Assembly (NCBI GenBank): GCA_019116705.1
Contig: DXBF01000025.1
Coordinates: 1-35,425, forward strand
Direction: 5' to 3'
DNA length: 35,425 nucleotides
From: Candidatus Gemmiger avistercoris
Lineage (GTDB): Bacteria; Bacillota; Clostridia; Oscillospirales; Ruminococcaceae
Positions 4,611 through 35,108 of the stretch are shown piece after piece. The stretch's first letter is position 1. Every line of letters begins with the position of its first letter. A model generated the notes under the pieces. The model saw nothing but the letters and a program-made list of their open reading frames with translations. It had not been told where the DNA came from and did no database searches. Made by a program: the position numbers and the translations under genes.

Positions 4611-4621
4611 ACTGCAAATTC

Positions 4622-4642
4622 CCGCTTTCTTGACGAAAGCGG
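4622..4642 (+). terminator. Weak terminator/attenuator hairpin
   Basis: CCGCTTTC/GAAAGCGG (8 bp) with loop TTGAC lies 11 nt after the stop of the TM2-like gene. The T content downstream is poor (ACAAAGAGCTTTTC), so read-through into the next gene is plausible. Confidence 0.4.
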
Positions 4643-4659
4643 ACAAAGAGCTTTTCTTC

Positions 4660-4682
4660 AAAACCGCATGAATATGCGATTT
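4660..4682. repeat. Short palindromic repeat, copy 2
   Basis: AAAACCGCATGA followed by ATATGCGATTT; 21 of 23 bases match the copy at 2847-2869. Confidence 0.6.
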
Positions 4683-4709
4683 CAGCCGGAATTTCTTTGG
4701 TCCTTTCCA

Positions 4710-4871
4710 GGGTGCAGCGGACCAGGCAACGGTGCTGGAATGTTCGCTGCCGGACGCAGCCGCCAGGAGGGAGACCGCAGCCATACTGTATGTATGGCAA
4801 GGCCGAGTGACGCAGCGGATGCCGTCCGGCAGTAGAACAGAACGGTGCCGGGGATCTGGCCTGCTGTACCC
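4710..4871 (+). ncRNA. 162-nt structured RNA element, copy A
   Basis: Lies between the TM2-like gene and the LiaF-like gene. Four nested helices are visible. P0 pairs the ends, GGGTGCAGCGGACCAGG with TCTGGCCTGCTGTACCC, using G-U pairs. P1 pairs TGTTC with GAACA. P2 pairs CTGCCGGACG with CGTCCGGCAG. P3 is GCCATAC/GTATGGC. P1 and P2 are separated by an asymmetric loop G/TA. Unpaired blocks shared with copy B (24406-24573) are GTGCTGGAA, ACCGCA, CAAGG-YY-GAG, ACGCAGC and GAACRGTGC. Strand is assigned by the G-U pairs and by similarity to copy B, which lies in a plus-strand leader. I do not recognise the family. Confidence 0.75.
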
Positions 4872-4910
4872 GAAGTAAAGAAAGGACGAGAAACACACGA
4901 GGTACAAAAA

Positions 4911-5946: not shown

Positions 5947-6534
5947 TCAGCGCCGGACGGCGTTATGGATATACTTGCGGTCCAGCCCGTAGCTGAGGGC
6001 GGCGCGCAGCACCATCCAGGTGAGGAACACTTCCAGCGGCAGCAGCACGGTGTTTTTGACAAGGCCGGTGCTGACGTAGTACAGGTACCCCTTGCCGTAG
6101 AGCATGGCCTTCCACACGCTGCCCAGCAGCACGTTGCTGCCGTAGTTGATGATGAGCCGGGTGACCAGCAGCCGCGGCACCGTGGGCTTGCGGCGGTAGA
6201 GCATGACGCCGTAGATCAGCCCCGACAGTATGGCGGTGATCAGGTACCCGGGGAAGTACGGCTCCCCGTACCCGGCCAGCAGGAAGCCCACCGAGTCGAT
6301 GACGCCGCCCACGGCCATGCCTACCAGCGGGCCGTAGCACATGCACCCCAACGACACCGCCAGGTAGCTGAAATAGATCTTGAGGCTGGGCCCCAGCAGG
6401 TAGATGGGCATGCTTTCCAGCACGATGGCCATGGCGCAGACCAGGCCGGACAGCGCCAGCACCCGGACGTTGCGGAATTCCGCCCGGGCGGCGCGCCAGT
6501 AGGCGGCAGAAAAAACGGACAGGGGTTCCCTCAT
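5947..6534 (-). CDS. folT: Folate ECF transporter substrate-binding S component (FolT-type)
   Basis: A 195-residue membrane protein with five or six hydrophobic segments. It has the look of ECF-transporter S components (PIYLLGPSLKIYFSYLAVSL, then PLVGMAVGGVIDSVGFLL and YFPGYLITAILSGLIYGVML). S components bind a vitamin and dock on the shared EcfA-A'-T module, which is not in this window. The substrate is assigned from the THF riboswitch in its leader (6627-6748), so folate is a strong inference. The start at 6534 follows GAGGAGGAG; a longer open frame upstream runs through the riboswitch and is not coding. A hairpin buries this ribosome site. Confidence 0.88.
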   Translation of the reverse strand: MREPLSVFSAAYWRAARAEFRNVRVLALSGLVCAMAIVLESMPIYLLGPSLKIYFSYLAVSLGCMCYGPLVGMAVGGVIDSVGFLLAGYGEPYFPGYLITAILSGLIYGVMLYRRKPTVPRLLVTRLIINYGSNVLLGSVWKAMLYGKGYLYYVSTGLVKNTVLLPLEVFLTWMVLRAALSYGLDRKYIHNAVRR

Positions 6535-6541
6535 AAACAAA

Positions 6542-6579
6542 CTCCTCCTCATTGTGCAGTTTGCTGCACAATGGAGGAG
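6542..6579 (-). promoter_or_regulatory. Ribosome-site-sequestering hairpin of folT
   Basis: On the minus strand, CTCCTCCATTGTGCAG pairs with CTGCACAATGAGGAGGAG around loop CAAA, with one bulge. The 3' arm contains the GAGGAG ribosome site of folT, so the helix would block translation. It lies directly after the THF riboswitch and is the likely expression platform, or a second independent gate. Confidence 0.65.
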
Positions 6580-6626
6580 ACGAAAGCGGGCATGGCTCAC
6601 ACGCCATACCCGCCGTTGCACACCGT

Positions 6627-6748
6627 CATGCAGCAGCGGGATGCGGGCGCCGCACCGCGGACCATGACGGTCGCTTCGTCCTGCCACAACTCCCCGTTGG
6701 TCAGGCACTTCGGGGCAGACGCCCCACGCGCGGTTCCCTACTCTGCGA
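6627..6748 (-). ncRNA. THF (tetrahydrofolate) riboswitch
   Basis: The minus-strand leader of folT carries the conserved blocks of the THF-I riboswitch in order: AGAGTAGGGAACCGCG, GAAGTGCCTG, GGGGAGTTGTGGCAG, ACGAAGCGACC, then GCGGTGC and CGCATCCCGCTGC. The class senses reduced folates and normally represses folate transport genes when they are abundant. Ends are approximate. Confidence 0.85.
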
Positions 6749-21470: not shown

Positions 21471-22161
21471 GGGCATCCTCCTGTTCCGGGGCGCCGGGGC
21501 GGCGGCGCAGCAGCGTCAGCGCCAGGGTGATCCCCACCATGGCGGGAATGAGGAAGTTGTCCGCCCCGAACACCGCCAGACAGGCAAGGGATACCCCCAG
21601 CCCCACCAGGGCGGCCGTATGGTCCCGCGCGGCACGCCACTGTTCGGTCATGACCACCAGGAACAGCGCCGTCATCGAAAAGTCGATGCCGGTGGTGTCA
21701 AAAGGCAGCAGGCCGCCCACCAGCGCCCCGGCCAGGCTGCCCGCCACCCAGTACAGCTGGTCGAACAGCGAGACCAGAAAGAAATACCGCCGCCGGTCCA
21801 CCCCGGCGGGCACATCGCCGCTGCATACGAGGGAGTAGGTCTCGTCGGTCAGGGCGAAGATCAGGTAGGGCTTGGCGGGTCCGGCGTCCCGGTAGCGCTC
21901 CACCATGGAAACGCCGTAGAACAGGTGCCGGGCGTTGACGGTGAGCGTCATCAGCGCGGTGGCGATCAGTGAAGCGCCCCCGGCCAGCAGGTCCACCGCC
22001 ACATACTGCATGCTGCCCGCATAGACCAGAACGCTCATGGCCAGCGCCCAGCCCGCGCCGTACCCTTTGGTCTGCAGCAGCACGCCGAACCCCAGCCCCA
22101 GCACCAGATACCCCGCCATGACCGGCAGGGAGCGGGCGAAGGCATAACGCGCAGTTTTCAC
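21457..22161 (-). CDS. azlC: AzlC-type branched-chain amino acid exporter subunit
   Basis: A 234-residue membrane protein of the AzlC family, with the blocks [44 protein letters not shown] and LTDETYSL. The start is GTG at 22161, 8-9 nt after GAGGGGG. A TATAAT box (22196-22201, minus strand) lies about 35 nt upstream and directly abuts the end of repeat copy 5, so the -35 position falls inside the repeat and is poor. It is translated with azlD. Confidence 0.92.
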
Positions 22162-22206
22162 AAGAAGGCCCCCTCTTTTTCGTCAAATTAGCCTTTATTA
22201 TAGCAC

Positions 22207-22374
22207 AAAGAGGGCTGCGGAGCCGAGCGCCGCCTGCGGCGGATACAGCGAGGCGGAGCAGGGGCAGCGGTCGCAGAGCGCAAGCGCCGTCCCAAGGCGC
22301 GCCGCGCGATGCGGGCACCGCAACCCGTCAAATAGACGCGTTAGGCGCAGCCGTGCGCGGCTGTTGCCCCTTTT
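22207..22374 (-). repeat. 3'-end modular repeat, copy 5 (modules A-B only)
   Basis: Minus strand, starting 6 nt after the dnaK stop: AAAAGGGGCAACAGCC, apex CACGGCTGCGCCTAA, then module B, from GACGGGTTGCGG to AGCCCTCTTT. Modules C and D are missing; the sequence after CCTCTTT is the azlC promoter region. Orientation is that of dnaK. Confidence 0.8.
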
Positions 22375-24342: not shown

Positions 24343-24378
24343 CAACGTTTTCGTCCCCGCAGGGCGCTGCAAACGTTG
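24343..24378. promoter_or_regulatory. Inverted repeat overlapping the hisB -35 box
   Basis: CAACGTTT (24343-24350) and AAACGTTG (24371-24378) are exact inverted repeats with 20 bp between. The second arm covers the first bases of the hisB -35 box, so a bound dimer or looped pair could block RNA polymerase. No regulator is assigned. Confidence 0.4.
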
Positions 24379-24404
24379 ACGCTGCCCGCCGTGCATGGTA
24401 CAAT
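24376..24404 (+). promoter_or_regulatory. Promoter of hisB and its structured leader
   Basis: TTGACG (24376-24381), 17 bp, TACAAT (24399-24404). Transcription would begin at about 24411, at the 5' edge of the structured element, leaving a leader of about 200 nt. Confidence 0.8.
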
Positions 24405-24405
24405 T

Positions 24406-24573
24406 CTAGGGTATATCTGATAAATCAAAAGTGCTGGAAAATTCGCTAAAAAGTAGCGAATGCAAGGCGCGAAACCGCAGGAATACTTGATGTATTCCAA
24501 GGTTGAGCAACGCAGCAGGCGCTGCTTTTTAGTAGAATTGAACAGTGCTGGGGATTTTTCAGATACACCCTAG
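24406..24573 (+). ncRNA. 162-nt structured RNA element, copy B (hisB leader)
   Basis: Outer helix P0 pairs CTAGGGTATATCTGATAAAT with ATTTTTCAGATACACCCTAG (two mismatches). P1 is AATTC/GAATT. P2 is CTAAAAAGTAGCG/CGCTGCTTTTTAG with one G-U pair. P3 is GGAATAC/GTATTCC. Counted from GGG to CCC (24409-24570) it has the same 162-nt length as copy A, and its shared unpaired blocks stand at the same distances, while almost every helix base differs. It lies between the hisB promoter and start. P0 lacks a T tract after it, so it is not a simple terminator. Confidence 0.78.
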
Positions 24574-24608: not shown

Positions 24609-25196
24609 ATGGCACGCACGGCAACGGTAACGCGCAACACCCGCGAGACGCAGATCACCCTGACCCTGGCGCTGGACGGCGCCGGCAAGACCGACCTGGA
24701 CACCGGCATCGGCTTTTTCGACCACATGCTGGACGGGTTCGCCCGCCACGGCCTGTTCGACCTGACCGTACACTGCCGCGGCGACCTGCATGTGGACTGC
24801 CACCACACCATTGAGGATGTGGGCATCGCCCTGGGCACCGCCCTGCGCCAAGCCCTGGGGGACAAGGCGGGCCTTGTGCGGTACGGCAGCTGCCTGCTGC
24901 CCATGGACGAAACGCTGGCGCTGTGCGCCGTGGACCTGGGCGGGCGGCCCTATTTCGTGTACGACGCCGCCTTTGCCGGGCCCCGCTGCGGCGGCATGGA
25001 CACCCAGATGGCGCGGGAGTTCTTTTACGCCGTCAGCTACGCCGCGGCGATGAACCTGCACCTGAAGATCCTCTACGGCGCAAACGACCACCACAAGCTG
25101 GAAGCGCTGTTCAAAGCCTTCGCCAAGGCGCTGGACGCCGCCAGCCGACCCGACCCCCGGATCGAGGGCGTGCTTTCCACCAAGGGCACGCTCTGA
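24609..25196 (+). CDS. hisB: Imidazoleglycerol-phosphate dehydratase
   Basis: A 195-residue enzyme of histidine synthesis, removing water from imidazoleglycerol phosphate. Both metal-binding histidine blocks are visible: [13 protein letters not shown] near residue 64 and [15 protein letters not shown] near 158, plus [14 protein letters not shown] near 34. The length is that of a monofunctional HisB. It stands alone, with no other his gene in the window. It is followed 104 bp later by glyA, with no terminator seen between, so read-through is possible. The ribosome site GGAAAGGAG lies about 10 nt before the ATG. Confidence 0.95.
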
Positions 25197-29532: not shown

Positions 29533-29840
29533 AAAAGGGGAAACACTCGCCCACGGCAATTGCCTAAGGCTCGTGTTTAACGGGTTGCGGTGCCCGCATC
29601 GCGCGGCGCGCCTTGTGGCGGCGCTTGTGCTCTGCGGCCGCTGCCCCTGCTCCGCCTCGCTGTATCCGCCGCAGGCGGCGCTCGGCTCCGCAGCCCTCTT
29701 TGGAATCCCCTTCGACAAAATTTAGTCCAAAACCGCGCACTCGGCGCAGAGCGCCTCGCACACAATTTTGGCCTAAATTTCCCTGATTGTGTCGCCGCCG
29801 GCGGCGCATGTCCGCCGGCGGCGACGGATTTTTGAATTTC
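29533..29840 (+). repeat. 3'-end modular repeat, copy 3 (modules A-B-C-D, complete)
   Basis: Module A (29533-29578): AAAAGGGGAAACACTCGCC facing GGCTCGTGTTT, apex CACGGCAATTGCCTAA. Module B (29579-29700): from AACGGGTTGCGG to AGCCCTCTTT, GC-rich with several small hairpins such as GCCGC/GCGGC. Module C (29701-29784): arms AAATTTAGTCCAAAA/TTTTGGCCTAAATTT and inner hairpin GGCGC/GCGCC. Module D (29790-29840): a perfect 14-bp stem GTCGCCGCCGGCGG with its complement, loop CGCATGT, tail GGATTTTTGAATTTC. It fills the gap between the FAD gene and the HtrA terminator. Confidence 0.88.
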
Positions 29841-29853
29841 TCGGCGACCCAAA

Positions 29854-34654: not shown

Positions 34655-34750
34655 GTAGGGGCGGCGTGTACGCCGCCCGGGGGTGTGGCGGCAGCCCGGA
34701 AATTTACGGGCCACGCAAAATGGCACGGCGGGGTCAAGACCCCGCCCTAC
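34655..34750. repeat. GTAGGG...CCCTAC palindromic repeat element
   Basis: About 96 bp bounded by GTAGGGGCGG and CCGCCCTAC in inverted orientation. Inside are three hairpins: GGGCGGCG/CGCCGCCC (34659-34678), CCCG/CGGG flanked by GTGGC/GCCAC (about 34684-34714), and GGCGGGGTC/GACCCCGCC (34727-34746). It looks like a REP/MITE-like intergenic repeat. Bases 34581-34654 show nothing else. Confidence 0.55.
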
Positions 34751-34765
34751 GGCAAACGGCAAAAA

Positions 34766-34793
34766 CCCCCGCCCTGCGTATGCAGGGCGGGGG
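34766..34793 (-). terminator. Terminator downstream of pckA and repeat copy 4
   Basis: CCCCCGCCCTGC/GCAGGGCGGGGG (12 bp, loop GTAT). AAAAA at 34761-34765 gives TTTTT on the minus strand, so it ends the transcript from pckA after the repeat. It may also stop helicase transcripts. Confidence 0.75.
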
Positions 34794-34802
34794 CAATTTG
34801 TA

Positions 34803-35108
34803 GAAAATTTCAAAATCCGTCACCGTCGGCGGACATGTGCCGACGACAGCGACACCGACAGGGAAATTTTACGGCAAGAGTGTGCGAGGAACGAAGTGAT
34901 GAGCGCGCGGCTTGCCGTAAAATTTTGTCGAAGGGGATTCCAAAGAGGGCTGCGGAGCCGAGCGCCGCCTGCGGCGGATGCAGCGAGGCGGAGCAGGGGC
35001 GGCGGCCGCAGAGCGCAAGCGCCGCCCCAAGGCGCGCCGCGCGATGCGGGAACCGCAACCCGTTAAACAGGAGCGTCAGGCAATTGCCGTGCGCGACTGT
35101 TGCCCCTT
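34803..35108 (-). repeat. 3'-end modular repeat, copy 4 (modules A-B-C-D, complete)
   Basis: Minus strand, starting about 8 nt after the pckA stop. Module A: AAAAGGGGCAACAGTCGCG facing CGCTCCTGTTT, apex CACGGCAATTGCCTGA. Module B: AACGGGTTGCGG to AGCCCTCTTT. Module C has perfect 15-bp arms AAATTTTACGGCAAG/CTTGCCGTAAAATTT, whose inner half differs from all other copies on both sides. Module D: GTCGCTGTCGTCGG/CCGCCGACGGTGAC with two G-U pairs, loop CACATGT, tail GGATTTTGAAATTTTC. Confidence 0.88.

Follow-up and report, generated by a model that had tools for sequence, protein, structure and literature searches.

Copies A and B, two intergenic elements in a 35,425-nt stretch of contig DXBF01000025.1 from Candidatus Gemmiger avistercoris (assembly GCA_019116705.1; hereafter, the window), are best read as members of two subfamilies of a widespread superfamily of non-autonomous DNA transposons. 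In kind these elements are MITEs, and what is new about them is a deeply conserved, strand-specific core common to several transposon types, the fold of which is under selection. Very probably, they represent an undescribed MITE superfamily that carries a strand-specific folded module and relies for its movement on transposases acting in trans, IS5-like ones among them. MITEs are usually seen as inert leftovers, with their ends as the defining feature. In the present elements, neither ends nor arms remain recognizable from group to group, yet one strand-specific folded core is retained throughout a bacterial class and reaches a few genomes of the same phylum beyond that class. The elements thereby provide a testable case of function at the level of the single strand in a bacterial mobile element.

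Two hairpins of equal length

Copy B (24409-24570, plus strand) is a hairpin MITE whose core-sense strand is the plus strand, and copy A (4710-4871, plus strand) belongs to a divergent subfamily with GC-rich arms. They score 191 and 147.2 bits, respectively, with model R1, which was built from 11 copies. As claimed in an earlier note on this DNA, both copies are 162 nt long (GGG...CCC), and the sequence blocks that they share, said there to stand at constant spacing, are in register in the A/B alignment. Each copy folds as a single long hairpin. In RNA folding, copy A with its flanks reaches -109.9 kcal/mol (z -8.44) and copy B -85.8 kcal/mol (z -11.10), and none of 200 dinucleotide shuffles is as good in either case. 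The helices, described in the same note as changing on both sides at once, do so in the consensus structure of the 11 copies, where 20 of 53 pairs are altered on both sides against a shuffled mean of 6.0 (0/500 shuffles reach 20, and slid partners give at most 5), with the structure derived from the same alignment that was scored.

A scan of the whole window with Rfam 15 at the gathering score gave no match on copy A or B, and a permissive search of the two copies yielded sub-threshold matches only (best E 0.18). Rfam likewise had no match on any element at 20 other loci of the family. The matches obtained in the window and these 20 loci, THF (window 6632-6747) and Fusobacteriales-1 (L070 3957-4075), both lie outside the elements. 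The view that the family had gone unrecognized thus agrees with the comparison to Rfam.

Distribution and anatomy of the core

Model R1 finds the element in 26 of 35 genomes of the genus at E 0.01. These matches are not copy numbers because the palindromic R1 hits the minus strand of the very same copies as well, with up to 72.5 bits. A pattern scan of named genomes collected 49 loci in records titled Gemmiger, Ruminococcus, Angelakisella, Oscillospiraceae or Clostridia, which are alike in their centre and have unrelated arms. The centre is described by model R2, the core, with 65 positions, 19 pairs, and 38 sequences. The core of A lies at 4758-4822 (plus strand, 67.8 bits) and that of B at 24458-24522 (plus strand, 82.8 bits). 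For the order, Oscillospirales in GTDB, R2 detects the core in 90 of the 394 genomes at E 1e-4, and, at E 1e-5, in 40 of 391 genomes of the class and 8 of 398 genomes of the phylum; all three counts include the own genome and near ones, and copy numbers per genome from these searches are lower bounds (at most 13 candidates were scored in each). Five of the genomes with phylum-level matches fall outside the class, one of them being a single-contig 6.5-Mb genome with at least six matches; the weakest of the five, G1167, looks doubtful. With 90 of the 394 sampled order genomes carrying it, the family would be a large addition of RNA or single-stranded DNA to the annotation of gut bacteria. The covariance-model search of related genomes, which the earlier note had proposed, thus brought out further homologues with covariation. 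Of the other outcomes that the note listed as refuting its view, an explanatory Rfam match was not found, and identical copies account for a part of the homologues, some of which are near-identical.

In the core stem, each strand reads CAAG-N9-CGCAG, so that the same internal-loop motif occurs twice, in opposite orientation and about 9 nt apart, under a short hairpin. For example, the core of B comprises two CAAG/CGCAG internal loops, a short helix, and a hairpin cap. Among 113 distinct cores with a length of 60 nt or more, the exact CAAG-9-CGCAG spacing is present on the 5' strand in 51 and on the 3' strand in 67, and no version of the pattern fits the 5' strand of 31 and the 3' strand of 20. 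Arms that are unrelated in sequence also have a recurring internal loop, a tandem GA/GA, seen in 22 of 90 elements and often located some 19-21 nt beyond the core; the mirror loop AG/AG was seen in one of the 90. The count of GA/GA loops is exploratory, as is the suggestion that the loop is a further motif of the folded strand.

Selection on one folded strand

Like structured RNAs, the elements have covarying helices and a preferred strand. Fourteen of the 19 pairs are altered on both sides in the core alignment A5, with a covariation score of 0.353 against 0.138 for shuffled alignments (0/500 reach the observed score) and at most 0.093 for slid partners. In 52 cores outside model building, which were aligned without structure, 93.4% of the cells pair, compared with a mean of 68.4% and a maximum of 72.0% in shuffles and at most 46.2% in slides. 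Some bias is left in this comparison because the cores were found with R2, which scores structure. In the same set, 17 of the 19 pairs are altered on both sides.

The arms carry a second signal in their mismatches. The 130 model matches correspond to 117 distinct elements after removal of 13 that were duplicates or too close to a contig end, and 90 of these, with a stem of at least 30 pairs, entered the counts (27 were dropped). When these elements were oriented by the core and their arms were aligned with equal penalties for the two mismatches, G·T outnumbered A·C by 334 to 111. Individually, 74 elements lean toward G·T, six toward A·C, and 10 are tied; by arm cluster, 23 lean toward G·T and four toward A·C, with two ties (P 3e-4). 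Whether decay is slight or advanced, the ratio stays near 3:1 (92:32, 127:46, and 115:33). A laxer arm alignment of all 117 elements, which overran the true ends, gave the same lean (623 to 402). If a DNA palindrome decayed or underwent correction symmetrically, G·T and A·C would be expected in equal numbers, and a simple mutation bias of one strand is disfavoured because insertions occur in both orientations. Selection on structure, as claimed in the earlier note, is thus supported at the level of a single strand by covariation and by strand-asymmetric wobble.

The plus (core-sense) strand folds better than its complement in 85 of the 90 elements, and in 78 of 90 when the arms are taken alone. 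This preference does not separate RNA from single-stranded DNA, since DNA parameters give the same 85 of 90 as RNA parameters. The arm clusters leaning toward A·C are L110/L113/L122 and the single-element clusters L121, L138, and L155. In L110, L113, and L122 (genomes G163, G143, and G073), A·C averages 2.7 per element and G·T 0.3, and two of the three fold better as the minus strand.

Insertion sites of copies B and A

The outer helix of B (P0 in the earlier note) is present, but it is the terminal inverted repeat of an element flanked by TA. The left repeat, GGGTATATCTGA, occupies 24409-24420 on the plus strand, and the right one, which reads GGGTGTATCTGA on the minus strand, 24559-24570. 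The inverted ends of B-type copies have the form TA-GGGTGTATCTGA...TCAGATACACCC-TA. The two TA dinucleotides, at 24407-24408 and 24571-24572, are a target duplication. At the orthologous hisB site of G022, G004, G001, and G018, B is missing and one TA is kept; joining the flanks of B restores the layout of the relatives, TTGACG-17-TACAAT-TCTA-GACATAC. The hisB promoter, TTGACG-17-TACAAT (24376-24404, plus strand), has the same layout in six relatives, and hisB itself (imidazoleglycerol-phosphate dehydratase; Pfam PF00475, E 1.1e-66) follows downstream of B at 24609-25196 on the plus strand. Because this promoter ends 4 bp before B and points in the sense direction, B would be part of a transcribed hisB 5' leader.

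The unit of 162 nt proposed for both copies stands, but for A it is perhaps not the whole repeat. A stretch of about 4696-4889 (plus strand), with outer arms GGTCCTTTCC ... GAAAGGAC, is common to three other loci (G018:C43, G026:C1, and G000:C39, with 81-84% matches). Copy A is flanked by CA and GA, with no target duplication seen, and the intergenic region that bears it is about 40 bp long in relatives without A. A second repeat lies beside A: parts of window 4619-4707 have 78-86% matches, two of them in G000:C38 and one in G000:C39. Elsewhere, A-type copies are seen in compound repeats with a terminator-like hairpin.

Dispersal and genomic context

The elements are short, non-coding, dispersed, multicopy, and bounded by terminal inverted repeats, as is expected of MITEs; a target duplication together with an empty site is available for B, and duplication alone for other types. 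A DNA search of the 35 genus genomes found 14 B-like copies with 90-100% identity over 131-179 bp in G003, G007, G012, and G014, and the B locus as query retrieved further B-like copies down to 70% identity. The exact pattern of the B 5' half occurs in five of 100 genomes, including the own genome, with six copies in G003. Several B-type copies lie at contig ends, as is typical of repeats, and short derivatives with internal deletions retain the element ends. At L027 (2994-3330) and L040, an element of a different type has inserted into a B-type copy. The L027 locus belongs to phage record MT836497.1, which is labelled as a phage from human faeces.

These data bear on the earlier statement that the copies reflect selection on RNA structure and "not a recent transposon copy". 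The first half holds, as the fold is selected; the second does not, as the elements are mobile. Against it stand the 14 near-identical copies of B, with their inverted ends, TA flanks, and the empty sites for B, and also the absence of the A stretch from relatives. Covariation alone does not rule out a transposon, and changed helices with constant loops cannot separate RNA selection from mobility; here, both hold.

There is no clear orientation preference relative to neighbouring genes. At 36 low-GC loci with both neighbours, the left gene is co-directional with the core in 15 and the right gene in 22, and one of 37 elements at low-GC loci lies inside a long ORF. This recount replaces an earlier one (co-directional left 48/95, right 52/95; 13 elements under a long ORF), which relied on a crude ORF caller that misassigned the neighbours of both window copies. 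A terminator role was considered and rejected, with two weak terminator-like sites in B against 0.6 expected, none in A, and no clear orientation preference. A phage-borne element was likewise considered and dropped: two patterns run against viral_contigs gave zero and two matches, and the single phage record holds the nested copy. A plasmid search with B and the Angelakisella element gave no match, nor did a phage search with the Ruminococcus element.

Element ends and candidate transposases

Target duplications differ by arm type, and at least three kinds of ends therefore enclose the same core. Of 16 Ruminococcus-type elements, 12 have exact duplications of 4 bp (the other four are without a full duplication), and TTA duplications flank both Angelakisella-type elements caught by the pattern, which missed a third, L102. 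TA is present on both sides of four of eight B-type elements, the other four being without a full duplication. TA flanks alone are indistinguishable from an inverted repeat because TA is its own reverse complement. Consequently, an empty site is the sole proof for TA types, and among these it is available for B only. The TA flanks (5/5) of a second Gemmiger type (L042 and kin) are not counted as duplications because these flanks are conserved between copies. A TA duplication in all types, once considered, is ruled out by the 4-bp duplications at Ruminococcus-type ends.

A lead to the responsible enzymes came from G036, the one genome among 16 copy-rich genomes with DUF4096, which holds an IS with TA-flanked ends similar in style to those of the elements. 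The orfB of this IS has relatives in 18 of the 394 order genomes. From an inverted-repeat scan of these 18 loci, seven ISs with clear ends were analysed together with L265, and L281 and L287, which also have inverted repeats, were left out. All eight ISs are TA-flanked and 813-920 bp long, and the four tested (L265, L271, L276, and L279) carry PF13340 and PF01609. As far as the family is described in the part of the source available, the IS427 group of the IS5 family has mostly 2-bp target duplications, inverted repeats of 13-21 bp, a length of 832-865 bp, and mostly two transposase ORFs (PMC3281130). The two domains, the TA flanks, and the length of the eight ISs are features of this group.

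Each element was represented by its better end and compared over 16 nt with the IS ends. The best IS end agrees with L111 at 15 positions, with the right end of B at 14 (against L276), and with L110 at 14, a level reached in 0 of 2000 shuffles for each. Weaker agreement is found for L137 (13/16), L114 and L125 (12/16), and the Ruminococcus type and L092 (11/16); the ends of A and L132 resemble IS ends weakly (10/16, P 0.01), and that of L139 does not do so significantly (9/16, P 0.13). Genomes that hold a MITE did not yield a transposase with ends matching it, and a search of five Gemmiger genomes for two B-type ends spaced 0.8-3 kb, with at most one mismatch, was negative (coordinates by eye; 12 loci viewed). 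Among the 394 order genomes, six of the 18 with an IS427-like orfB also have the core, which is not a significant co-occurrence (P 0.21). G036 and G232 hold both the IS and the core, with ends that differ by eye. A search for the core in 27 IS loci was negative (best match 16.4 bits, E 0.032), and the transposase therefore seems not to need it. Mobilization by IS5-like enzymes is thus a putative step, since the matching ISs lie in other genomes, co-occurrence is not significant, and the IS loci are without the core.

A proposed mechanism and its alternatives

Each element is one long hairpin whose terminal inverted repeats would be used, and presumably cut, by transposases supplied in trans. 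IS427-group enzymes (IS5 family) may move B and similar TA types, and other transposase groups may move the types with 3- or 4-bp target duplications. The core would work when the core-sense strand is single and folded. That this strand acts as RNA rather than as single-stranded DNA is moderately favoured, on account of conserved tandem G-U pairs in B-type copies and of the position of insertions such as B in a leader predicted to be transcribed. The RNA would be made by read-through from neighbouring promoters, for example from that of hisB in the case of B. In what is the least supported step, the folded strand may bind a protein dimer or soften what the insertion does to the host transcript; a dimeric protein bound through the two symmetric loops is a guess. 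Tentatively, and with rather less than even confidence, the core module could be viewed as a genomic hitch-hiker that keeps its fold over deep bacterial time while swapping transposon ends (TA, TTA, and 4-bp), one core thus being carried by different transposase groups, with the two-fold symmetric CAAG/CGCAG motif as a protein-binding site. If so, the bound protein would give the element its advantage.

The same data allow other readings of the folded strand. In the main rival, it acts as single-stranded DNA, the ends being paired as one duplex on one replication strand and recognized by a transposase or by a hairpin-binding host protein. Precedents for strand bias from folded single-stranded DNA exist in integron attC sites, which belong to cassette arrays next to an integron integrase, and in REP/RAYT elements, and the pairing of the arms over most of their length in the types inspected, the identical strand preference with DNA energy parameters (85/90), and the repetition of the same sequence on both strands of the internal loops all fit. 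However, the ends resemble those of DDE elements with target duplications, and the conserved tandem G-U pairs of B-type copies (pairs 24-139 and 25-138) are of a kind that is stable in RNA and poor in DNA, which leaves this reading on the unlikely side. A host-beneficial or regulatory RNA that was captured and spread by MITEs, with copies such as B in the hisB leader being regulatory, would account for the covariation of the core, its strand preference, and the position of B 4 bp past the hisB -10 element in the sense direction. Yet the absence of B at hisB in relatives indicates that it is not needed there, and with co-directional neighbours at 15/36 (left) and 22/36 (right) of the low-GC loci there is no clear preference for orientation; we regard such an origin as distinctly unlikely.

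Two further readings would do away with either the selection or the proposed enzymes. Template-switch correction of quasi-palindromes, which occurs in bacteria, would homogenize the arms and keep them complementary, thereby mimicking covariation with no selection on a folded strand. It is strand-symmetric, whereas G·T exceeds A·C three to one once elements are oriented by the core, and it would not keep identical unpaired loops in unrelated arms, so that it appears very improbable. An origin as IS630/Tc1-mariner MITEs, which target TA, was first considered because of the TA flanks and is in line with the TA duplication of B, but scarcely any weight can be given to it after a negative DDE_3 search and end comparison. 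DDE_3 is present in seven of 30 genomes and absent from the Gemmiger ones searched (G000, G003, G012, G002, and G007 are among those without it), no element ends were found at the DDE_3 loci (five of nine probed), and other element types have 3- and 4-bp duplications.

Relation to described elements

A MITE superfamily with a folded, strand-specific core, the reading preferred here, has partial counterparts among described repeats, with MRSC-65-2 and the bcr repeats coming closest; a literature search, mostly of titles and abstract openings and including few subscription journals, found no paper on this element. In the accessible portion of its description, the MRSC-65-2 motif (Narunsky et al. 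2024, PMC11109978) has more than 20,000 representatives in diverse phyla, a conserved repeat UYCCGG, and, according to its authors, a possible action as DNA. It is similar to the present family in its single long stem, strong covariation, dozens of copies per genome, and candidacy as a mobile element or repeat. In contrast, the core described here has CAAG and CGCAG repeats in place of UYCCGG, which sets the two apart by description, not by alignment. The bcr1-bcr3 repeats of the Bacillus cereus group are likewise intergenic, MITE-like, often located in UTRs, and transcribed; they too are set apart by description, since the available part of the report gives no shared core (PMC3446304). The whole transcript of QMITE2, a MITE of Coxiella burnetii, folds as one stem-loop, as do the elements here, but QMITE2 has direct repeats of 7-9 bp, and no core conserved across families is described in the sections available (PMC10969869). 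The IS427 group shares with B its TA-flanked ends and differs in that the 27 IS loci examined are without the core. RAYT transposase is the enzyme associated with REP palindromes. A REP/RAYT palindrome was rejected because the elements are about 160 nt long and have inverted ends with target duplications, whereas REP palindromes, as characterized in the part of the source available, measure 20-40 bp and carry a GTAG or CGTC tag (PMC3733652).

Other features of the window and loci

The THF riboswitch in the window (RF01831, 6632-6747, minus strand, 54.6 bits) lies just upstream of a minus-strand membrane-protein ORF (5947-6708), the product of which looks, on our assumption, like the folate transporter FolT. 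At L070, a Ruminococcus-type element is preceded, some 50 nt upstream, by the Fusobacteriales-1 RNA (RF02920, 3957-4075, 73.7 bits). ORF translations at about 2500-2830, 21698-22318, 29590-29852, and 34683-35066 of the window contain similar nonsense peptides, such as RGAP..GACALRPLPLLRLAVSAAGGARLRSPL, which is read from the minus strand at 21698 and from the plus strand at 29590, and the recurrence of these peptides suggests that the window holds another dispersed intergenic repeat.
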